NCBI RefSeq assembly: GCF_000466385.1
Contig: NZ_KE952910.1
Coordinates: 27,780 to 88,503 of the forward strand
Direction: 5' to 3'
Origin: Aneurinibacillus aneurinilyticus ATCC 12856
GTDB lineage: Bacteria > Bacillota > Bacilli > Aneurinibacillales > Aneurinibacillaceae
Length of the DNA stretch: 60,724 bases
How positions within the stretch are numbered: position 1 is the first letter of the stretch; every line of letters begins with the position of its first letter. This document shows, in pieces, positions 1 to 60,724 of this stretch. Under the pieces are notes generated by a model, which saw only the letters and a program-made list of their open reading frames with translations, made no database searches and was not told where the DNA came from. Both the position numbers and the translations under genes were made by a program.

Positions 1-40
1 GATGCGCCCTGCGCTCCGGCAGAAGAAAGGCCAATGTGTC
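1..40 (+). repeat. Partial copy of the 120-bp dispersed repeat (copy A)
   Basis: The first 40 bases match the 3' third of the repeat at 5901-6020 with three differences and also match the copy at 60595-60714. The small hairpin with GCGC arms and loop CCT is intact. The second, terminator-like hairpin is shortened because GGTTT replaces the T-rich arm. The copy is cut by the window edge. It lies directly upstream of the methyltransferase gene and has the same orientation relative to it as the other upstream copy has to its downstream gene. Confidence 0.8.
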
Positions 41-81
41 GGTTTATCAAATCAGGTGTATATCGGAGAGGAAGGGATACG

Positions 82-5069: not shown

Positions 5070-5741
5070 ATGACTGTAACACGTCAAGATGCATGGACGC
5101 CGGATGATGATTTGCTGCTAGCAGAAGTGACGCTACGACATATTCGCGAAGGAAGTACCCAACTGTGCGCATTTGAAGAAGTAGGTGAGCGCCTCAGCAG
5201 GACGGCGGCTGCATGTGGATTTCGCTGGAACAGTGCTGTGCGTAAACGTTATGAAGATGCCATACAAATCGCTAAGGCGCATCGCCAGGAGCGCAAGAAA
5301 GCGAAACGGAGGCTGAAAGGCATTTCTTCGGTTCCTCTTATGGAAAAGGCAAGTCTAGCAGAAGAAACCTCTCAGGCTGAAATGGATGAGGCAGTTGCTG
5401 TAAGACAGCAGGAGATGCAGGAAGAAATTTCTCTCGATGTTGTCATTCGTTTTTTGCGTGGACAGAAAGATGCATATAAGCGTATGAAGCAGCTGGAAAA
5501 GGAAGTAGCTGATAGCCGCAAGGAGCTTGCAGAGCTTCGCACCGAGAATGAGAGTCTAAGAGAAGAATTGTCTTTGATGAAGTCGGACTATCAAGTTGTT
5601 AACGATGATTATAAAGCTTTGATTCAAATTATGGATCGTGCGCGTAAAATGGCATTTCTCGGTGGAGAAGAAGAGGTTGATGTGAAACCTCGTTTTAAGA
5701 TGGATGCTAATGGAAATCTTGAGCGTGTCGATTACAGATAA
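5070..5741 (+). CDS. RsfA-family sporulation transcriptional regulator
   Basis: A 223-residue protein. Residues about 5-60 form a Myb/SANT-like DNA-binding domain (DAWTPDDDLLLAEVTLRHI, later FRWNSAVRKRY), as in RsfA and YlbO of B. subtilis, which tune forespore or mother-cell gene expression. A basic linker rich in Lys and Arg follows, and residues about 135-185 form a coiled coil (QLEKEVADSRKELAELRTEN). ATG 5070 has CGGAGG 8 bases upstream, so the longer frame from 5001 is not used. It appears monocistronic. Which of the two paralogues it represents cannot be decided here. Confidence 0.8.
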   Translation: MTVTRQDAWTPDDDLLLAEVTLRHIREGSTQLCAFEEVGERLSRTAAACGFRWNSAVRKRYEDAIQIAKAHRQERKKAKRRLKGISSVPLMEKASLAEETSQAEMDEAVAVRQQEMQEEISLDVVIRFLRGQKDAYKRMKQLEKEVADSRKELAELRTENESLREELSLMKSDYQVVNDDYKALIQIMDRARKMAFLGGEEEVDVKPRFKMDANGNLERVDYR

Positions 5742-5766
5742 AAAATAAGAAAAACTTGCAGACAGT

Positions 5767-5842
5767 GCCGTTCGTCTTTTTTTCACAACGAAGTCGAACG
5801 GCCGCTTTGTGACATGTCGGTCTTTTTCACCCGCCGTGTCAC
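5767..5842. other. Hairpin-rich block, diverged inverted relative of the element at 60391-60582
   Basis: Stems GCCGTTCG/CGAACGGC (5767-5774, 5795-5802) and GTGACA/TGTCAC (5809-5814, 5837-5842) fill the first part of the 421-bp gap 5742-6162. On the minus strand the blocks GACACGGC, CACAAAGCGGCC and AGACGAAC occur in the same order as on the plus strand at 60465-60520. No coding potential is seen. The T-run follows the left arm, so this is not a normal plus-strand terminator for the rsfA-like gene. Confidence 0.55.
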
Positions 5843-5900
5843 GTGCTCCACAGGGAATAAAGAAAACTTCGCTGGTGCCAAACTAGCGCGCAGGCAACAC

Positions 5901-6020
5901 TATATAAGTTACACTTGATATTTTGACATGATCACGTGGTTGGAAGTAGGAAATTCGGAAAAAAGAAGAGGTTGGATGCGCCTTGCGCTCCGGCAGAAGA
6001 AAGACCAGTGTGTCTTTTTC
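5901..6020 (+). repeat. 120-bp dispersed structured repeat (copy B)
   Basis: Aligned without gaps to 60595-60714 with six differences in 120 bases. It contains an AT-rich 5' half, then a hairpin GGA-T-GCGC / GCGCTCC (5974-5991) and a terminator-like hairpin AGAAAGAC / GTCTTTTT (5998-6019). Both stem substitutions between copies give G-U pairs and so preserve pairing. No terminal inverted repeats and no open reading frame of note are visible. It lies 142 bp upstream of the biotin carboxylase gene. Confidence 0.85.
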
Positions 6021-6162
6021 TAGTCTCTGATTTTCTCCGTCTTTTTTTATGACATTTAATTAAAAAAATTTTGAAATTAAGAAGGGGATTTTTAATCCTT
6101 TGTAGAAAATGTCATTTATAGAGTGATTGATTTTTACATATTGTGCATGAAAGGGTGAGCAA

Positions 6163-7515
6163 ATGAAGATCAAAACGATTCTCATTGCGAATCGGGGCGA
6201 AATCGCCCGTCGAATCATACGGACATGCAAAGCAAAAGGAATTCGCACGATTGCGGTTCATTCTGAAGCGGATGCACCCATGCCTTTTGTGCGTGAAGCG
6301 GACGCTGCGGTCGTTATTGGTCCGCCGCCGGTAGTGAAGAGCTATTTGAATATGGAAGCGATTATACAGGCTGCTAAAGACCATGGGGTTGACGCAATTC
6401 ATCCAGGTTACGGCTTGCTTTCGGAGAACGGGAATTTTGCGAGAAGGTGTGCTGAAGAAGGTATTGTGTTTATCGGTCCTCGTCCTGAAGTCATGGAAGA
6501 TATGGGCGATAAAATTCGTGCGCGAACACGAATGATGGAAGCCGGGATACCGGTAGTTCCGGGATATAACGGTAGCATTGCGGATGCGGAAGAAGCGTGC
6601 AGCATTGCAGCGGATATAGGATATCCAGTCATGTTAAAGGCAAGCGCGGGCGGTGGCGGGATCGGCATGCAAGTGTGTGAAAATGAGGAAGAAGTGCGAA
6701 AAGCGTTTCAGTCTGCCAAAGGGCGGGCAAAAGCGTATTTTGGCAACGATGATATGTTTATTGAGAAGTACATTGAAGAACCACACCATATTGAAGTGCA
6801 GATTGCTGGTGACGAGCATGGTCACATCATCCATCTGTTTGAGCGGGAGTGCTCGATTCAGCGACGTCATCAGAAGGTGATTGAAGAAAGTCCGTCTCCG
6901 TTCCTGGATGATGTGACGCGAGAGGCAATTTGTCGGACAGCCGTTCAGGCTGCACAGGCGGTTGGTTATACGGGAGTCGGAACTGTTGAATTTATTATGA
7001 ATGGAGAACAGGAGTTTTTCTTTTTGGAAATGAACACGCGCCTTCAGGTAGAGCATCCCGTTACTGAGGCGGTAACAGGCTTTGACCTTGTGGAGATGCA
7101 GTTAATGATCGCCGAAGAGAAAGCGCTCACAATTTCGCAAGAAGAGGTAATACAGCGTGGACATGCGATAGAACTTCGAATTTATGCTGAAGATCCAATT
7201 ACGTTCATGCCGTCTCCGGGTACGATTTCAAGATATGAACAACCGGAAGGGAAAGGGATTCGTGTTGATGATGCTGTTGAGTCAGGCTCAACCATTACAC
7301 CGTACTATGATCCAATGATAGGCAAGTTAATCGTCAGTGGAAACACGCGTGCCGAAGCGATCGCCCGTGCCGAGGAAGCACTCGCACAGTATGTAATCGA
7401 CGGCATTAAAACAAATCTTCCTATGCTTGGTGATGTGCTGCGTGATGAAGCGTTCGTTGCGGGAACATACACAACACAATTCGTTCAACAAATGAAGCGG
7501 ACGACCAATAAATAA
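6163..7515 (+). CDS. Biotin carboxylase subunit of an acyl-CoA carboxylase (YngHA/AccC-like)
   Basis: A 450-residue biotin carboxylase: MKIKTILIANRGEIARRII at the N-terminus, the ATP-grasp glycine loop KASAGGGGIGMQ, HQKVIEESPS and EMNTRLQVEHPVTE. It carboxylates biotin on the carrier protein with ATP and bicarbonate in the cytosol. The downstream genes encode a 71-residue carrier, an HMG-CoA lyase and a carboxyltransferase, as in the B. subtilis yng cluster. It is therefore more likely to belong to methylcrotonyl-CoA or a related acyl-CoA carboxylase than to fatty acid synthesis. ATG 6163 has AAAGGGTGAG upstream. The leader between the repeat and this gene carries inverted arms ATGACATTT (6049-6057) and AAATGTCAT (6107-6115). 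Confidence 0.85.
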   Translation: MKIKTILIANRGEIARRIIRTCKAKGIRTIAVHSEADAPMPFVREADAAVVIGPPPVVKSYLNMEAIIQAAKDHGVDAIHPGYGLLSENGNFARRCAEEGIVFIGPRPEVMEDMGDKIRARTRMMEAGIPVVPGYNGSIADAEEACSIAADIGYPVMLKASAGGGGIGMQVCENEEEVRKAFQSAKGRAKAYFGNDDMFIEKYIEEPHHIEVQIAGDEHGHIIHLFERECSIQRRHQKVIEESPSPFLDDVTREAICRTAVQAAQAVGYTGVGTVEFIMNGEQEFFFLEMNTRLQVEHPVTEAVTGFDLVEMQLMIAEEKALTISQEEVIQRGHAIELRIYAEDPITFMPSPGTISRYEQPEGKGIRVDDAVESGSTITPYYDPMIGKLIVSGNTRAEAIARAEEALAQYVIDGIKTNLPMLGDVLRDEAFVAGTYTTQFVQQMKRTTNK

Positions 7516-26874: not shown

Positions 26875-27783
26875 ATGCAGAAGCTGATTACAGAGCTGAA
26901 AGAAGCTAACATCGGAACAGTGCTTATTAATGAACCGCTGGCGAACCACACAACGTGGAAAATCGGCGGGCCGGCAGATATTCTTGTTGAACCGACTAAT
27001 AAAATGGCGTTAGCTCATAGTATGAAGCTCGTTCACAAGTATAATGTGCCATGGCAAGTGCTGGGCAGAGGTTCGAATATGCTTGTACGGGATAAAGGAA
27101 TTCGCGGCGTTGTTTTTAAACTGGCTGAAGGATTTGATCACCTTACCTTTAACGGGGAAGAGGTAGAGGTGGGAGCTGGCTATTCGTTTATACGATTAGC
27201 AGTGATGGCCGGGAAAGAGGGATTGACCGGGCTTGAATTTGCCGGCGGTATTCCAGGTACAGTGGGCGGCGCAGTTTATATGAATGCAGGTGCGCATAGT
27301 TCTGACGTTTCACGCATTCTTAAATCGGCTGAAGTGTTACTCGAAAATGGGGAGTTAGTTTGGCTTTCTCCAGAAGAACTCGGTTTTAGCTACCGCACGT
27401 CCGTGCTTCAGAAGGAGCGAAGGGGTGTTGTGGTGAGTGCCGTATTTAGGCTCCAATACGGCGACCGTAAAACAATTGCTGGCCATATGGCGGCATATAA
27501 AGACCGACGGCGTCAGACACAGCCGTTATCTATGCCGTGTGCAGGCAGCGTATTCCGCAATCCGCCGGGAGACCACGCAGGGCGCTTGATTGAGAGCGCC
27601 GGGCTTAAAGGTCTTACAATCGGAGGTGCGCAGGTTTCGGAGAAGCATGCTAATTTCATCGTAAATCGGGGGAACGCGACGGCTCAGGATGTCCTCGACC
27701 TCATGGAACGGGTTATTGAAATCATTGATGAACGTTATCAGGTACGACTTGTTCCGGAAGTATTGGTGGTGGGCGAGGGGTAA
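26875..27783 (+). CDS. murB: MurB, UDP-N-acetylenolpyruvoylglucosamine reductase
   Basis: A 302-residue FAD enzyme that makes UDP-MurNAc with NADPH. The FAD site shows NHTTWKIGGPADILVEP, LGRGSNMLVRDKG and GIPGTVGGAVYMNAGAH; CAGSVFRNP carries the catalytic serine, and PEVLVVGEG ends the protein. This is the short type II form common in Bacillota. ATG 26875 has AGAGGAGG at a good distance; the frame extends upstream into murG without a start signal. Confidence 0.95.
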   Translation: MQKLITELKEANIGTVLINEPLANHTTWKIGGPADILVEPTNKMALAHSMKLVHKYNVPWQVLGRGSNMLVRDKGIRGVVFKLAEGFDHLTFNGEEVEVGAGYSFIRLAVMAGKEGLTGLEFAGGIPGTVGGAVYMNAGAHSSDVSRILKSAEVLLENGELVWLSPEELGFSYRTSVLQKERRGVVVSAVFRLQYGDRKTIAGHMAAYKDRRRQTQPLSMPCAGSVFRNPPGDHAGRLIESAGLKGLTIGGAQVSEKHANFIVNRGNATAQDVLDLMERVIEIIDERYQVRLVPEVLVVGEG

Positions 27784-49129: not shown

Positions 49130-49271
49130 AATTACAAAGAAACCTTTAATTCAGTCCTGTGAGGCTGGCAAGGAAATCGGACACGTTTGGTGAAAAAAGG
49201 GGAGAGTTGTATAGCTCCTGCATTTTTCCTGAACTTGAAAAGCTTTCTGCCTCTCGCAGAAAGCTTTTTTT
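49130..49271 (+). promoter_or_regulatory. PyrR-dependent attenuator in front of pyrR
   Basis: The PyrR-binding loop AGTCCTGTGAGGCTGG (49153-49168) matches the known consensus. Downstream lies a strong terminator, AAAAGCTTTCTGC (49238-49250) with GCAGAAAGCTTTT (49256-49268) plus a T run. When UMP or UTP is high, PyrR is expected to hold the loop and let the terminator form; an antiterminator involving the AAGGAAAT segment and ATTTTTCCTG is possible. Confidence 0.9.
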
Positions 49272-49303
49272 ATGCCTGATTACTTTATTTACGGACAAAA
49301 TAA

Positions 49304-49888
<585 letters not shown>

Positions 49889-49914
49889 AAGAATTAAGAT
49901 AAGTCAATCCAAAC

Positions 49915-49956
49915 ATACCCTTTAACTCAGTCCTGTGAGACTGGTAAGGAAGGAGA
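49915..49956 (+). promoter_or_regulatory. PyrR-binding loop overlapping the pyrP ribosome site
   Basis: AGTCCTGTGAGACTGG (49929-49944) is a clear PyrR loop with a lower stem CCTTTA/TAAGG. The 3' side of the stem runs into the pyrP Shine-Dalgarno AAGGAAGGAG (49946-49955). The 75-bp gap has no terminator hairpin, unlike the B. subtilis pyrR-pyrP region. PyrR would therefore most simply block pyrP translation. Confidence 0.75.
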
Positions 49957-49963
49957 AAACAAA

Positions 49964-51340
49964 ATGATCAAGAAGGACTATATTGATGTACACGAAACGC
50001 CTGCTATCCAGAAGCTTATACCGCTGAGCTTGCAGCATTTGTTCGCCATGTTTGGCTCAACTGTGCTGGTACCGCTTCTGACTGGGCTTGATGTATCTGT
50101 CGCGCTGCTGACAAGTGGGATCGGCACGCTCCTGTTTTTGCTGATTACAAGGGGCAAGCTACCGAATTATCTCGGCTCATCCTTCGCTTTCATCGGTCCG
50201 ATTATTACCGTAAGCGCAAGTCAGGGAGTTGGAACGGCCATGCTTGGCTGCTTCATTGCAGGTCTGGTCTACCTCGTGGTAGCGCTGGTTGTCAAAATGG
50301 CAGGGATTAATTGGCTCAATCGTCTGCTTCCGCCTGTGCTTATCGCATCGATTATTATCGTTATCGGTCTGAGCATTTCCGGTGTAGCGGTCGGCTGGGC
50401 ATTGAATGACCCGCTAAGTGACCCGGCTAAGCCCGCATACTCACTTGCTGCAGTAGAAGTAGCGTTTGTGACATTAGCGATGACAGTAATCGCTAATCTG
50501 TTCTTCCGTGGTTTTTTATCTGTACTTCCGGTTCTAATGGGAATGGTTGTTGGTTATATCTATACGTACATTCGTCATCCGGAATGGATTGACTTTAAAA
50601 GCGTAGCGGCAGCGCCGCTCTTTATTACACCGAGTATGTGGATGAAAGAACATTTTGTTACAGGCCAGGTGCTTGATGCGTTTACGTCTCCAACTGCATG
50701 GATGACTGCACTTATTATTGCACCTGTAGCCTTCGTTACACTGGCTGAGCATATCGGTCACCTACTGGTGACAGCCAATATTATGAATCGTGACTTGATG
50801 CGCGACCCGGGCCTGCACCGCTCGGTTGCAGGCGATGGTGTAGCGGTTATTTTCGCTTCCTTTCTAGGAGGGCCGCCGAGCACAACATATGGAGAGAACA
50901 TGGGAGTTTTGGCCATGACGAAAGTGTACAGTCGCGTGGTTATTGGTGGTGCGGCCTGCTTCGCGATTTTGTTCGCCTTCGTAGGTAAAATCGGTGCCCT
51001 GCTCATGACGATTCCAAAGCCGGTATTAGGCGGTGTCACCATTGTGCTGTTCGGTATTATCGCAGTACAAGGTATGCGCATGTATGTTGAACATAATATT
51101 GACTTTGCTCATAAGCGAAATATGGTGGTTGCAGCAATTGTGCTCGTAACTGGAATTGGAGGGTTCAAATTGGACTTCCACGAAATAACGTTCAGCAATT
51201 TCATAGCACACTTGACTGTCGATAATATTGCAATGGCTACCTTCCTCGGCATGCTGCTGCACGCAGTATTGCCGAATAAAGAGGTCGCTTTTGGAAACAA
51301 CGGTAAAAAAAATGAACAATTGCATAAGCAAGCATCATAA
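49964..51340 (+). CDS. pyrP: PyrP, uracil permease (UraA/NCS2 family)
   Basis: A 458-residue uracil:proton symporter with about 14 membrane segments. Family marks are PLSLQHLFAMFGSTVLVP at the start, the PNYLGSSFAFIGP segment and VTLAEHIGHLLV with the substrate-binding glutamate, then FLGGPPSTTYGENMGVLAMTKVYSR (in parts). AAGGAAGGAG precedes the ATG and overlaps a PyrR loop. Position after pyrR matches B. subtilis. Confidence 0.94.
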   Translation: MIKKDYIDVHETPAIQKLIPLSLQHLFAMFGSTVLVPLLTGLDVSVALLTSGIGTLLFLLITRGKLPNYLGSSFAFIGPIITVSASQGVGTAMLGCFIAGLVYLVVALVVKMAGINWLNRLLPPVLIASIIIVIGLSISGVAVGWALNDPLSDPAKPAYSLAAVEVAFVTLAMTVIANLFFRGFLSVLPVLMGMVVGYIYTYIRHPEWIDFKSVAAAPLFITPSMWMKEHFVTGQVLDAFTSPTAWMTALIIAPVAFVTLAEHIGHLLVTANIMNRDLMRDPGLHRSVAGDGVAVIFASFLGGPPSTTYGENMGVLAMTKVYSRVVIGGAACFAILFAFVGKIGALLMTIPKPVLGGVTIVLFGIIAVQGMRMYVEHNIDFAHKRNMVVAAIVLVTGIGGFKLDFHEITFSNFIAHLTVDNIAMATFLGMLLHAVLPNKEVAFGNNGKKNEQLHKQAS

Positions 51341-51341
51341 T

Positions 51342-51515
51342 CATCCTTTAAAACAGTCCCGTGAGCCTGGTAAGGATGCCGTGGTGTATATGAAACAGGA
51401 GAAAGCAGCCTTCATCTGGTCGCAAAGACGGATGATTGGGAAAGACAGGCTCCTTTTTTCCGAGTGCATATACAAAAGGGCTTCTTACCGAACGGGACGG
51501 TAGGAAGCCCTTTTT
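51342..51515 (+). promoter_or_regulatory. PyrR-dependent attenuator between pyrP and pyrC
   Basis: CATCCTTTA and TAAGGATG frame a PyrR loop AGTCCCGTGAGCCTGG (51355-51370). The terminator is GGGCTTCTTACC (51478-51489) with GGTAGGAAGCCC (51499-51510) and a T run. GGTAAG (51369-51374) can pair with CTTACC (51484-51489) of the terminator arm, giving a plausible antiterminator. In B. subtilis the matching attenuator precedes pyrB, which is absent here. Confidence 0.88.
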
Positions 51516-51576
51516 GCTTGGCGTATACCAAAACAGTGCAAATTGAACATGATTTTATGATAAAGGGGAGAATACG

Positions 51577-52875
51577 ATGGGTACAATTTTACGAAATGGT
51601 CGATTGCTAGTAAACGGAGAATTAGTAATAAAAGATATTTTAATCGAGGGAAACACCATTGAAAAAATTGGGGACGGTTTAGAAATTGCTGACCACAAAG
51701 TAATTGATGCAACAGACAAGCTGGTTACACCAGGTTTTATTGATATGCACGTTCATCTGAGGGAGCCGGGATTCGAGGCGAAGGAGACGATTGCTACAGG
51801 AACGGCGTCTGCAGCGCGCGGCGGATTTACTACGGTAGCATGTATGCCGAATACTCGTCCTGTCATTGACACGCCGGAAACGGTAAAACAAATTCTCAGC
51901 AAAGCAAAGGCGGAAGGCAGTGCCCGCGTTCTGCCGATTGGCGCAATCACAGTACGAGAACTCGGTAAAGAGCTGACGGACATGTCAGCATTGAAGGAAG
52001 CAGGAGTTATCGCAGTATCTGATGATGGGGTAGGTATACAGACAAGTCAAGTGATGAAAGATGCGATGAAAGTGGCAACAGGGCTGGGCCTGCCAGTTAT
52101 TGCACATTGCGAAGATGATAGTTTGGCTGAAGGAGGCTGCGTACACGAAGGTGTATTTAGTGAAAAGCACGGGTTAAAAGGAATTCCGTCCGAAGCAGAA
52201 TCCATTCATGTTGGCCGTGATATCCTGCTGGCCGAAGCGACAGGCGTACACTACCATGTATGTCACATCAGTACGGTTGAATCAGTACGTCTGGTACGTG
52301 AAGCAAAACAGCGTGGCGCACGAGTGACAACGGAAGTATGTCCGCATCACCTCTTGCTATGCGATGAAGATATTCCAGCCTTAGATGCCAATTATAAAAT
52401 GAATCCGCCACTGCGCTCTCGCCGCGACCGTGACGCGCTTATTGAAGGATTAAAAGATGGTACTATCGATATGATTGTTACCGACCACGCACCGCATACA
52501 GCAGAAGAAAAACAGCGTGGCATGGAGCTTGCGCCATTCGGCATCGTCGGCCTGGAAACGGCTTTTCCGCTCCTTTACACTAAGCTAGTACTTGAAGGTT
52601 CATTCACGCTGCAAGAGATTGTTGAACGCATGACAAAAGTGCCGGCGGACGTATTTAATCTGCCATGGGGTACTTTGCAGGAAGGCGCAATTGCCGATAT
52701 TGCGGTCATTGATTTGGAAACAGAAAAAGAGGTAAATCCTGAAGATTTTGCAAGCAAAGGACACAACACGCCATTCACTGGCTGGAGATTAAAAGGTTGG
52801 CCGGTATTGACCATGCTAGAAGGTCAAGTGGTATGGCAGGCAGATGAGATGAACAGCGAAGGAGCGAGACAATAA
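51577..52875 (+). CDS. pyrC: Dihydroorotase, PyrC
   Basis: A 432-residue class I dihydroorotase. The first metal motif is PGFIDMHVHLREPG; others are PVIAHCEDD, VCHISTVESV and VTDHAPH. It closes carbamoyl aspartate to dihydroorotate. AAGGGGAG precedes the ATG. The upstream enzyme, aspartate carbamoyltransferase, would normally be encoded just before it but is missing. The stop overlaps the next start (TAATG). Confidence 0.95.
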   Translation: MGTILRNGRLLVNGELVIKDILIEGNTIEKIGDGLEIADHKVIDATDKLVTPGFIDMHVHLREPGFEAKETIATGTASAARGGFTTVACMPNTRPVIDTPETVKQILSKAKAEGSARVLPIGAITVRELGKELTDMSALKEAGVIAVSDDGVGIQTSQVMKDAMKVATGLGLPVIAHCEDDSLAEGGCVHEGVFSEKHGLKGIPSEAESIHVGRDILLAEATGVHYHVCHISTVESVRLVREAKQRGARVTTEVCPHHLLLCDEDIPALDANYKMNPPLRSRRDRDALIEGLKDGTIDMIVTDHAPHTAEEKQRGMELAPFGIVGLETAFPLLYTKLVLEGSFTLQEIVERMTKVPADVFNLPWGTLQEGAIADIAVIDLETEKEVNPEDFASKGHNTPFTGWRLKGWPVLTMLEGQVVWQADEMNSEGARQ

Positions 52876-53978
52876 TGGTAAAACAAGCGAGACTCGTATT
52901 GGAAGACGGTACAGTATTCATTGGAAAGTCGTTCGGAGCGGAAGAAGAGTCGCTCGGCGAGGTCGTATTCAATACCGGGATTACGGGCTATCAGGAAGTA
53001 TTGTCCGACCCGTCGTATTGCGGACAGATTGTTACGATGACCTATCCTATGATCGGAAACTATGGGATTAACCGTGACGATTTTGAATCCATGCGTCCAT
53101 TTTTACACGGATTCGTTGTACGTGAACATTGCGAAGTGCCAAACAACTGGCGCAATGAGCAAACAGTTGATGCAATGCTGAAGGAGTATGGAATTCCAGG
53201 CATTGCAGAAGTGGATACACGCAAATTAACACGCATTATTCGTCAGCACGGTACGCTCAAAGGTGTAATTACCACATCAGGTGAATCCGTAGAATCACTG
53301 CTTGAAAAGCTGAAAGCTCCGCTTATGGAGGATCAGGTAGCTCGGGTTTCCACGAAAAATCTTTTTCCGGTGCCAGGCCGAGGGCCGCGTATCGTATTGG
53401 TCGATTTCGGAGCCAAGTACGGTATTCTGCGAGAGCTAACTAACCGAGGCTGTGACGTTATTGTTGCCCCGTATAATGTTACCGCTGATGAAATTCGCCG
53501 CATTCGTCCCGACGGAATTCTGTTATCTAACGGACCTGGAGACCCGAAGAATGTTCCGGAAGCAATCCGCATGATTCAAGAGATTCTTGGGGAATATCCA
53601 CTGTTCGGTATCTGTCTCGGTCATCAATTGTTTGCACTGGCCTGCGGTGCTGATACGGAGCGCATGAAGTTTGGTCATCGGGGAGGCAACCACCCGGTGA
53701 AAGAGCTTGTTACCGGCCGCACGCATATTACTTCGCAAAACCACGGCTATGCTGTATCCGCTGATTCAGTGGCAAACACTGAGCTTGAAGTTAGCCATAT
53801 CGCACTTAATGACGGGACAGTAGAAGGCCTTATTCATAAAAAACATGCGGCGTTTTCTGTGCAGTACCACCCAGAAGCTGCGCCGGGACCATACGATTCC
53901 AATTACTTATTCGACCGCTTCCTAGAGCAGGTAGCCACATTTGTTAAGGGGGAAAAAGCGCATGCCACGACTCGATAA
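52875..53978 (+). CDS. pyrAA: Carbamoyl-phosphate synthase small subunit (pyrimidine-specific)
   Basis: A 367-residue glutaminase subunit. The N-terminal domain carries [21 protein letters not shown] (in parts); the class I amidotransferase domain has Cys247 in [12 protein letters not shown] and the His/Glu pair in YHPEAAPGP. It supplies ammonia to the large subunit. ATG 52875 overlaps the pyrC stop by one base. It overlaps pyrAB by 17 bases. Confidence 0.95.
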
Positions 53979-56900
53979 CATCAAGAAAATCCTTGTGATT
54001 GGCTCAGGCCCGATTGTCATCGGACAGGCCGCAGAATTCGATTATGCCGGAACCCAGGCTTGCCAGGCCTTAAAAGAAGAAGGCTTCGAAGTCATTCTGG
54101 TCAACAGTAATCCAGCGACGATTATGACCGATACGAATATGGCCGATAAAGTGTATATCGAACCGCTGACGAAAGAGTTCGTCACACGCATCATCCGCCA
54201 GGAGAAACCGGACGGTTTGTTGGCTACCCTTGGGGGGCAGACAGGGCTAAATCTTGCGATGGAACTGGATGAAGCCGGCATTCTGGAGGAAGAGAACGTA
54301 GCGTTGCTTGGAACAGACCTTGAAGCCATTAAAAAAGCGGAAGACCGCGATTTGTTCCGTAGCTTGATGCAGGAAATCGGTGAACCGGTACCGCCGAGCG
54401 ATATTATTCACACGGTAGAAGAAGCGTTGAAGTTCGCTGAACGTATCGGATACCCGATTATTGTCCGTCCGGCTTATACACTGGGTGGTACAGGCGGCGG
54501 TATTGTAACGAACGAAGAAGAACTGCGAGAAATTGTTGCCAGCGGTCTGAAATACAGCCCGATTACTCAGTGCCTTGTAGAGAAAAGCATTGCGGGTTTT
54601 AAAGAAATCGAGTACGAAGTTATGCGTGATGCAGCTGATAATGCCATCGTCGTATGTAATATGGAGAATATTGACCCGGTCGGCATTCACACCGGCGATA
54701 GTATCGTCGTAGCGCCGAGCCAGACGATGTCAGACCGTGAATATCAAATGCTGCGTTCATCTTCATTGAAGATTATTCGGGCGCTTAACATTCAAGGCGG
54801 ATGTAACGTACAGCTGGCGCTTGACCCGGACAGCTTCCAATATTACATCATTGAGGTAAACCCGCGTGTAAGTCGCTCATCTGCCCTGGCCTCCAAAGCA
54901 ACTGGCTATCCCATCGCGAAAATGGCAGCAAAAATTGCAGTGGGCTACACACTGGATGAGTTGAAAAACCCAGTAACAGAGCAGACATATGCATGCTTTG
55001 AGCCGACGCTCGATTATATTGTCACGAAAATTCCGCGCTGGCCGTTCGATAAATTCATCTCCGCCAACCGTAAACTCGGTACGCAGATGAAAGCAACCGG
55101 CGAGGTTATGGCTATTGGCCGTACGTTGGAAGAGTCGCTGCATAAAGCTGTGCGCTCGCTCGAAATCGGCCTGCATAGCCTCGAATTGCCAGAAGCAAAA
55201 GAACTCAGTCAGGAAGAGCTGGAACACCGTCTAGTAAAAGCGGATGATGAGCGCTTATTCCTTATCATGGAGGGAATGCGCCGTGGTATGACTGAGGAGA
55301 AGATTCATGAATTAACCAAAATTGATTACTTCTTCCTTGCGAAGTTTAAAAATATTATTCATCTCGAAAAGGAAATGGCAGAAGCAATAGCTTCCCGCAC
55401 ATTCGATATGCAAATGCTGCGCCAGGCTAAGCGCATGGGCTTTACAGATCGTCGAATCGCAGAGGTGACCGGGCTTGCTTCCTCGGACGTTGAAGCCCGA
55501 CGCAAAGAAGCCGGCCTCACCCCTGTTTACAAGATGGTAGATACATGCGCTGCGGAATTCGAAGCGGCAACACCGTATTACTATTCTACTTATGAAGATG
55601 AGGATGAGAGAGAAGAGACGGGCAAACCGCGCGTCATTGTACTTGGCTCTGGTCCGATTCGTATCGGACAGGGCATTGAGTTTGACTATTCGACAGTGCA
55701 TGCCGTTTGGGCATTAAAAGAAATGGGCTATGAAGCGGTTATTATTAATAACAATCCAGAGACAGTCTCGACCGACTTCAGCACCTCGGATCGTCTCTAC
55801 TTTGAACCGCTTTACATTGAAGATGTACTGCATATCATCGAGAAGGAGAAGCCGGAAGGTGTTATCGTACAGTTCGGAGGCCAGACAGCCATTAATTTAG
55901 CGGCTGACCTTGAAGAGGCCGGTGTGAAAATTCTCGGAACCGACCTAGCCAATATCGATGCGGCAGAAGATCGGGAGAAATTCGAAAAGCTGCTTCGTTC
56001 GCTTGATATTGCACAGCCGCCGGGTAAAACGGTAACGACGGTAGAAGCAGCGGTAGAAGCTGCGGATTCTCTCGGATATCCGGTACTTGTTCGTCCGTCC
56101 TATGTATTGGGCGGCCGCGCCATGGAAATCGTCTATAACGAGCAGGAATTACTAACATACATGCGTGAAGCAGTTAAAATCAATCCGGATCATCCAGTGC
56201 TTGTCGATACGTACCTGATGGGTGCGGAAGTGGAAGTGGATGCGATTAGTGATGGCGAAAATGTGCTGATTCCCGGGATTATGGAGCATATCGAACGGGC
56301 CGGGGTTCACTCGGGCGATTCGATCGCTGTATATCCAGCGCAGACCATTCCGGGCCAACTAAAAGAAGAATTGATTGATATGACGACCCGCATCGCGCGG
56401 GGCCTGCAAATCAAAGGCTTGCTTAACATTCAATTCGTCATCCATAAAAATAAGGCATATGTGCTGGAGGTTAACCCGCGTTCTTCCCGTACCGTACCTT
56501 TCTTAAGCAAAATCACTAACCTGCCGATGGCCAACATTGCTACTAAAGTGATTCTCGGCCATACGATTCCAGAACTTGGTTACACTCCGGGGTACCATCC
56601 GGAAGCGGATCATGTTTCCGTAAAAGTTCCGGTGTTCTCCTTCGCCAAGCTGCGTCGGGTTGATACAACGCTTGGACCGGAAATGAAGTCGACGGGCGAG
56701 GTCATGGGGCGCGATACAAATCTAGCTAAAGCACTATATAAGGGACTTATTGCTTCCGGTATGAGCATTCCGACACACGGTTCGCTGCTGGTGACGGTTG
56801 CCGACAAAGACAAAGAAGAAGCGGTCGATATTATTCAAAGCTTCCATCGACTCGGTTTTAAATTGCTGGCAACAGAAGGAACGGCGCGTTACCTGGAGGG

Positions 56901-57181
56901 CAAAGGAATGAACGTAACGTGTGTGCGCAAAGTAAACGAAGCCTCGCCGAATATGCTCGATATTATCCGTGAAGGAGAAGCAAGCTTCGTATTGAATACA
57001 TTGACGAAAGGTAAAACGCCTGAACGTGATGGATTCCGTATTCGTCGTGAATCAGCGGAGAACGGCGTCGTCTGTCTGACATCGCTTGATACGGCACAAG
57101 CGCTGCTCCGTGTGCTCGAAGCAATTACGTTCAGCGCAGAGTCTATGCCGCGCTTTGCAGCATCAGAGGGGGCATATGTGC

Positions 57182-57189
<8 letters not shown>
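53962..57189 (+). CDS. pyrAB: Carbamoyl-phosphate synthase large subunit
   Basis: A 1075-residue synthetase with two ATP-grasp halves: [20 protein letters not shown] and [20 protein letters not shown] begin each half, and [20 protein letters not shown] and [20 protein letters not shown] are the paired metal sites. A C-terminal allosteric MGS-like domain ([13 protein letters not shown]) ends the protein. ATG 53962 has AAGGGGG 9 bases upstream. It forms carbamoyl phosphate for pyrimidine synthesis. Confidence 0.96.
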
Positions 57190-59619
<2,430 letters not shown>

Positions 59620-59630
<11 letters not shown>

Positions 59631-60255
59631 TACAGCTACAGCACGACAAATTGCGGAAAAATTGTTGGATATTGACGCGGTGGCTCTGCGTCCGGATGAA
59701 CCTTTTACCTGGACATCAGGTATAAAAAGCCCAATTTACTGTGATAACCGGATGACGATGTCTTATCCTGAAGTACGGCAGCTAATATACCGTTCTTTTG
59801 CTGCACAAATTCGGGAAAAGTATGGAGAAGCCCAGGTTATTGCAGGAACAGCAACTGCGGGTATTCCTCATGCAGCGTGGGTGGCCGAGGAGCTGGGTTT
59901 ACCGATGGCATATGTACGCTCCAAGCCAAAAGGGCACGGCAAAGGTAATCAAATTGAGGGCAAGCTCGCACCCGGTGCCAAAGTCATCGTAATCGAAGAT
60001 TTAATCTCTACCGGCGGCAGTTCGATTGAGGCGGCTCGTGCAGTGCAGGAAGCGGGTGGAGAAGTGCTGGCTGTGCTGGCGATTTTCTCCTACCAATTTC
60101 CTGCGGCAGAGAAGGCATTTGCAGAAGCGGGCTTTTTGTTTGAGACACTCAGCAATTATACCGTTCTTCTCGAGGTTGCCATAGAGAAAGGCACCATTCG
60201 TCCAGAACAAATCGAGGCGTTGAAAGCTTGGCGTGAAAATCCGCAGGCGTATTAA
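59620..60255 (+). CDS. pyrE: Orotate phosphoribosyltransferase
   Basis: A 211-residue PRT enzyme converting orotate and PRPP to [37 protein letters not shown] and the PRPP loop [14 protein letters not shown] are clear. Its start overlaps pyrF by 11 bases, with AAAGGAG inside pyrF. It is the last gene of the operon and is followed by a large terminator. Confidence 0.95.
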
Positions 60256-60338: not shown

Positions 60339-60390
60339 ATCTGCGGTTTTAGAATAGTTAGCAGTGGTAAATAATATATTGTATCACACC

Positions 60391-60582
60391 TGTTGATTAT
60401 CCATAAGGTGGAAGAAAGAAGATGCACGCGTCGGCGTGTTCCCTCGTCTTTCTCACGAGGAAGAGACACGGCCCCTGGCGCCACAAAGCGGCCCTCTGAG
60501 CTTGGGTGCGGGAGACGAACCGATGCCCGTTTGGGGCACGGTGTGATGGCGATCCATTCTGGCTCATACTGGATAATCAACA
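60391..60582. other. 192-bp structured element bounded by a perfect 13-bp inverted repeat
   Basis: TGTTGATTATCCA (60391-60403) and TGGATAATCAACA (60570-60582) are perfect inverted repeats. Inside are CACGC/GCGTG (60425-60438) and CCTCGT/ACGAGG (60442-60460) hairpins and a GC-rich right half. Three short blocks are shared with 5770-5840 on the other strand. Two overlapping open frames cross it but look non-coding. This is most of the 469-bp end region 60256-60724. It could be a structured RNA or a miniature inverted-repeat element; I recognise no family. Confidence 0.6.
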
Positions 60583-60594
60583 CCCTTGATATTA

Positions 60595-60714
60595 TATATA
60601 AGTTACACTTGATATTTTGACATGATAACGTGGTTGGAAGTAGGAAATTCGAAAAAAAGAAGAGGTTGGATGTGCCCTGCGCTCCGGCAAAAGAAAGGCC
60701 AGTGTGTCTTTTTC
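60595..60714 (+). repeat. 120-bp dispersed structured repeat (copy C)
   Basis: Six differences from 5901-6020 across 120 ungapped bases. The same two hairpins are present, GGA-T-GTGC / GCGCTCC and AGAAAGGC / GTCTTTTT, each with one G-U pair in place of a Watson-Crick pair of copy B. It starts 12 bp after the inverted-repeat-bounded element. The last ten bases of the window (60715-60724) show nothing recognisable. Confidence 0.85.
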
Positions 60715-60724
60715 CGACCGTGCC

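Follow-up and report, generated by a model that had tools for sequence, protein, structure and literature searches.

A dispersed repeat of Aneurinibacillus with predicted hairpins as a probable IS630-type MITE family

Dispersed repeats of ~100–200 bp are found in genomes of Bacilli, for example, the bcr repeats of the Bacillus cereus group, and the MITE family described here is of the same general appearance but belongs to a different genus. Several of its traits recur in RUP of Streptococcus, which, like the Aneurinibacillus MITE, is short and non-autonomous, reaches ~100 or more copies per genome, carries terminal repeats that resemble those of the IS630 family and is predicted to fold with its termini paired (PMC3049150). 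The two differ in length (~107 bp for RUP, compared with ~200 bp) and in sequence, and RUP has a known proposed partner insertion sequence, IS630-Spn1, whereas the Aneurinibacillus MITE has a candidate type only, IS630. The ERIC and Correia (CREE/Nemis) elements are likewise short, high-copy sequences that would form a stable hairpin if transcribed; these elements are mostly intergenic, and their copy number differs strongly between related species (PMC10969869). ERIC is hosted by Enterobacteria and Vibrio, and Correia by Neisseria, and, by the published descriptions, both differ from the MITE in length and sequence. For IS630/Tc1-mariner elements, insertion at TA with duplication of this dinucleotide is the rule (PMC2170065), and a preference of IS630 for CTAG has been reported (Tenzen and Ohtsubo 1991, cited in PMC2170065). 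The MITE shares the TA target, the TA duplication and the CTAG preference with the IS630 family and ISY100, and TATATA, with which it begins, is also the start of IS630 elements in its own genus; unlike them, it contains no transposase gene and is only ~200 bp long. Elements of this kind are well known, the repeat being a new family among them, and a literature search found no description of such a MITE family in Aneurinibacillus.

The window, that is, the entire stretch of 60 724 nucleotides from Aneurinibacillus aneurinilyticus ATCC 12856 that was analysed, contains two copies of a 120-bp sequence, at 5901–6020 (copy A) and 60595–60714 (copy B), which an earlier note had described as differing at 6 positions, a number that a recount reproduced exactly (repeat positions 33 C/A, 58 G/A, 79 C/T, 83 T/C, 96 G/A and 104 A/G). 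The similarity is far beyond chance (within-window E = 6e-51), and the partial third copy claimed at 1–40 (copy C) aligns with 5975–6014 with 3 mismatches. The sequence is dispersed, as claimed, but its extent had been underestimated: the whole element is ~195–203 bp long, the 120 bp are its middle, and a right border was seen there because copies A and B hold alternative modules beyond that point (TAGTCTCTGATTTT.. versus CCGACCGTGCCC..). In an nhmmer search with a profile of full-length copies, copy A occupies 5901–6049 of the forward strand (E = 3.9e-41), corresponding to model positions 2–152 of 198; it starts with TATATAAGTTACACTTGATA at 5901 and is 3'-truncated, the final ~45 bp being missing. 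The alignment of 77–92 full copies places its left terminal inverted repeat at 5901–5928 (forward strand), and the outermost TA of this repeat would be the target duplication. The 5' two thirds of copy B fill 60595–60724 (forward strand; E = 9.5e-40), and the copy resumes past the window, beyond a 100-N gap, up to contig position 88692 (contig sequence L062). Copy C (1–64, forward strand) is an internally deleted 3' end that comprises the tip hairpins and the right terminal repeat GGTTTATCAAATCAGGTGTATATC; the 5' part of the same copy is separated from it by a 100-N gap upstream and belongs to a subfamily with a variant 5' end.

The 100-N runs that flank the window (contig positions 27680–27779 and 88504–88603) are located within copies C and B, respectively; the window is therefore what lies between two breaks that the repeat caused in the assembly. 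At the break in copy B, the flanking sequences overlap (TTTTTCCGACCGTGCC), so that the real gap length is probably zero or less. Because both borders are assembly gaps within copies, the repeat might itself be thought to be an assembly artefact or a vector or contaminant sequence. The probability of this is practically nil: a second, well-assembled genome (one 4.9-Mb contig) contains hundreds of diverged copies with different flanks, which refutes the artefact reading and makes the gaps a consequence of the repeat rather than its cause.

Full copies range from 129 to 222 bp, with most at 193–203 bp. The ends are imperfect terminal inverted repeats that begin with TATATA, TATATAARTTACACTTGATAKTTTGACA on the left and TGTCGATTTATCAAAYCAGATGTATATA on the right, the reverse complement of the latter (TATATACATCTGRTTTGATAAATCGACA) being the imperfect inverted partner of the former; as a search pattern, the pair of ends is TATATAARTTACACTTGATA..TGTCGATTTATCAAAYCAGATGTATATA. 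To the right of the 120 bp, the aligned copies extend for another 70–80 bases, by way of either of two alternative modules (TAGTCTCTGATTTTCTCC.. or CCGACCGTGCCCACCCACCGCCC..), up to the common end TACCTCCTACCACAAAAGTTTGTCGATTTATCAAAYCAGATGTATATA. No transposase gene was found within any MITE copy examined, and the G+C content of the MITE is 43.4% compared with 46.4% for the window, so that the element is only slightly more AT-rich, a point against reading it as a MITE. Another way to account for the similarity of the terminal sequence to IS630 ends would be that the repeats are what remains of the termini of a single long insertion sequence, with the 120 bp as one conserved end. This reading is extremely improbable given that both ends are ~200 bp apart in at least 89 copies; these full-length copies refute it. 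A longer autonomous element was considered for opposite-facing ends located 2–3 kb apart in a MITE-rich congener, and rejected, as these pairs are two separate MITEs around ordinary genes, with no transposase found in between.

The arms of the element are complementary over nearly the whole length, making it palindromic from one terminus to the other, and in single-copy folds (approximately −57 to −71 kcal/mol) the arms are paired along their entire length. The two hairpins to which the earlier note had drawn attention are the tip of this palindrome: tip hairpin 1 is at 5971–5994, as predicted in folds of single copies and of copy A, and tip hairpin 2, the purported terminator, is at 5998–6020 (both on the forward strand). 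The copy-based profile gives hits on both strands at the same locations, in line with the palindromic structure. In the subfamily with a variant 5' end (TATGTAGAATTCACTTGACGTAGTAACAAAAGTTCAG..; loci L016, L050, L054 and L061), the tip and the right end are unchanged, and the right ends at L034, L043 and L058 are preceded by unrelated sequence; both observations may reflect modular exchange or recombination among copies.

For a protein encoded in the window, the nearest named relatives, at up to 83–84% identity, come from Aneurinibacillus species, which places the host in this genus. The MITE family is abundant in the host genome (5.31 Mb, searched as 285 contigs), where a search of the kind that had been suggested yielded many further copies. 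There are at least 41 BLAST matches to the 120-base repeat; a 27-base core occurs 54 times when up to 3 mismatches are allowed (a lower bound for the family), compared with 0 matches of the reversed core, and 160 copies of the right (3') end are present. The same end is present in 267 copies in a second Aneurinibacillus species (congener G005, 6.3 Mb), in 0–3 copies in each of five other congeners and in 0–1 copies elsewhere in the bacterial family; an unbiased 400 kb of the MITE-rich congener contains 24 copies. An exact-pattern scan for the right end in a wider collection of contigs, which may omit near genomes, gave no match, and the repeat had no match in plasmid, phage and Rfam collections. 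A diverged full copy in another genus of the family (L205:359–548, with the ends TATATAAATAACGCTTGATGTTTCGACA and TATATAAATCGCTTTTGATATATCGACA) suggests that the MITE family is older than the genus Aneurinibacillus and was amplified in two of its species. The most similar pair of copies is 98.8% identical and no identical copies were found, so that current activity of the MITE is unproven.

The MITE inserts at TA, duplicating it, with a strong preference for CTAG. Among the full copies, 66% have C at position −1 and 68% have G at +1, and both flanks occur together in 33 of 89 copies; by comparison, 1.8% of the TA sites are CTAG in a 400-kb portion of the congener genome. To find related empty sites, the two flanks of every copy were fused and the fused sequence was compared with the retrieved loci. 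In two cases, a single TA is present before the insertion and two are present after it: L138 is filled (GGCATC-[TATATA..TATATA]-GTTATT) where L136 is empty (GGCATCTAGTTATT), and L089 is filled (GC-[..]-GGCTGC) where L143 is empty (GCTAGGCTGC). Filled and empty sites were also paired between species (L068/L114, L025/L104 and L142/L024); in L068/L114, the target keeps TA beside G, and the sites of the other two pairs are too diverged for exact reading. At L024, one copy is nested within the left end of another, at the second TA, with the TA duplicated. Outside the TATATA ends, there is no notable excess of identity that would indicate target duplications of 2–10 bp. The copies have unrelated flanks, and insertions of one species are missing from the matching site of the other; together, the terminal repeats, the TA duplication and the presence or absence at matching sites mark a mobile element.

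The TA duplication, the CTAG preference and the TATATA ends of IS630 relatives jointly point to a MITE of the IS630 type. IS630 (DDE_3) genes are present in both MITE-rich genomes, and across the bacterial family, including the congeners, the IS630 ends start with TATATAAGTT, TATATAAATC or TATATACATT, in a similar layout. Past TATATA, these ends agree with the left end of the MITE at up to 15 of 23 positions, compared with a mean of 6.5 of 23 for background TATATA sites, none of which reaches 15; the likeness of the IS630 and MITE terminal repeats beyond TATATA is moderate. None of these ends is similar enough to mark its element as the partner of the MITE, and in neither MITE-rich genome was an autonomous IS630 found that shares the terminal repeats past the first ~10 bases. 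We infer that the MITE is mobilised in trans by an IS630 transposase. In congener G004, three two-ORF IS630 copies (L154, L162 and L169) that are 99.7–99.9% identical and have TATATAAGTTGAATTAAA ends were likely active recently, and the host genome contains a degraded relative (L121).

Copy A lies 113 bp upstream of a biotin carboxylase gene on the same strand, as had been observed; the same had been claimed for copy B, but there is no gene downstream of it inside the window, and beyond the window a small same-strand ORF is followed by a large gene on the opposite strand. Across the family, copies located between co-directional genes have the same orientation as these in 34 cases and the opposite one in 21 (p = 0.10, with crude ORF calls), which is at most a weak tendency, and the placement of the copies is close to that expected from intergenic space. 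Counts of copies inside ORFs, which rest on the same crude calls, were discounted because short ORFs over the element may be spurious. The second hairpin does not qualify as a terminator, given that its T-run is inside the stem and that a scan of 5740–6170 detected 0 intrinsic terminators. A mechanically called ORF at 34–1242, the product of which belongs to the Methyltransf_28 family, has its start codon, the ATG at 34, within the right end of copy C; the real start is likely the ATG at 82, after GGAGAGGAAGGG. Elsewhere in the window, a PyrR binding-site leader (Rfam) at 49139–49273 is followed by an apparent pyrimidine operon (49310–60255), with a phosphoribosyltransferase as the last gene, and copy B and a second repeat are located just past the end of this operon.

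The second repeat (60385–60588, forward strand), directly before copy B, is a distinct high-copy short repeat that is not part of the MITE. It is ~204–220 bp long, has the ends CACRCCTGTTGATTATCCA and TGGATAATCAACACCCTTG (given also as CACRCCTGTTGATTATCCATAAGG and CATACTGGATAATCAACACCCTTG) and is present in at least 40 copies in the host genome. Direct repeats of 9 bp flank several of these copies (for example, L213, GCATTTAGT; L210, AAATGAACT; L212, GTATATAGA), which gives the repeat the appearance of a further MITE, one that belongs to a different IS type. At L212, the target (GATGTATATAGA) of one insertion of the second repeat was the right end of an IS630-type MITE copy; the second family was thus active once that MITE copy was in place.

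The stable folds of single copies, along with the weak same-direction tendency among co-directional genes, could be taken as signs of a dispersed structured RNA, a small RNA or a 5' leader regulator, with two hairpins under selection. The hairpins are indeed predicted in single-copy folds, but the further claim that their structure is kept by selection fails, because covariation does not exceed that in shuffles. With the fold of one copy (L004) overlaid on the 77-copy alignment and 500 shuffles used as the control, paired cells amounted to 85.1%, compared with 84.9% in the shuffles; the covariation score was 0.090, compared with 0.088, with 53 of the 500 shuffles as high, and for pairs altered on both sides, 51 of 500 were as high. 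The RNAalifold consensus of the 77 copies retains only 26 pairs, 4 of these compensatory, with a covariation term of −0.39. The two stem differences between copies A and B that give G-U pairs, previously offered as support for a conserved structure, are expected because transitions give G-U about half the time, and a single pair of copies with two such differences provides no evidence that RNA structure is maintained. Copy-specific one-sided stem changes give 28 G-T and 31 A-C mismatches in the arms; for the tip hairpins, the numbers are 17 and 13, respectively. The totals, 45 and 44, reveal no excess of G-U over A-C, although selection on RNA pairing would be expected to favour G-U. The raw arm counts (G-T 413 versus A-C 51) were set aside as evidence because a structure taken from the plus-strand fold of one copy favours G-U.

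The stems are not more conserved than the loops, substitution density being 1.35% in stems and 0.77% in loops of the tips, and 1.27% and 1.32%, respectively, in the arms, so that substitutions across many copies ignore both stems, the very pattern that the earlier note had named as contradicting its proposal. The two strands have similar folding energies (mean −60.2 and −57.9 kcal/mol), which leaves little strand asymmetry as a sign of RNA function, and the Rfam search gave no match at the repeat. All these tests agree, within a power limited by the copies being related and fairly recent, and they lend no support to selection for RNA structure. With the terminal repeats, TA duplication and presence or absence at matching sites marking a mobile element, a structured RNA is a very improbable explanation.

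Compatible with the MITE assignment, and in effect a variant of it, is partial co-option, whereby individual copies would serve the mRNAs that they interrupt as RNase III sites or attenuators, and some insertions would be retained for this reason. The long hairpin predicted in transcripts, the location of copies between co-directional genes and the precedent of the Correia and ERIC elements (PMC10969869) are in its favour, but the structure across copies bears no sign of selection and the placement is near the expectation from intergenic space, and we regard co-option as unlikely. A more elaborate possibility, which appears distinctly unlikely, is a modular MITE family in which 5' ends and middle modules come in alternative forms, the modules staying complementary to the opposite arm, and in which the plus orientation is slightly preferred in transcription units as the hairpin RNA is processed (e.g. 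by RNase III), tuning neighbouring genes in the two amplified species.

The repeat is thus very probably a MITE family of the IS630/Tc1-mariner type in Aneurinibacillus, dependent on a transposase acting in trans and not selected as RNA. Under this assignment, an IS630-family transposase would bind both terminal repeats, excise the MITE and paste it into a TA; the MITE would have been amplified in the lineage of the two MITE-rich species, and most copies would now be decaying neutrally. The hairpins would arise from the palindromic architecture rather than as a selected regulatory RNA, and the MITE would be passive towards neighbouring genes, although the long double-stranded RNA that any transcribed copy would form could have incidental effects on a neighbouring transcript. 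For Aneurinibacillus, the outcome is a practical one for the annotation of the draft genome: this high-copy MITE, located at the assembly breaks, should be masked before genes are called or regulatory RNAs are searched for.
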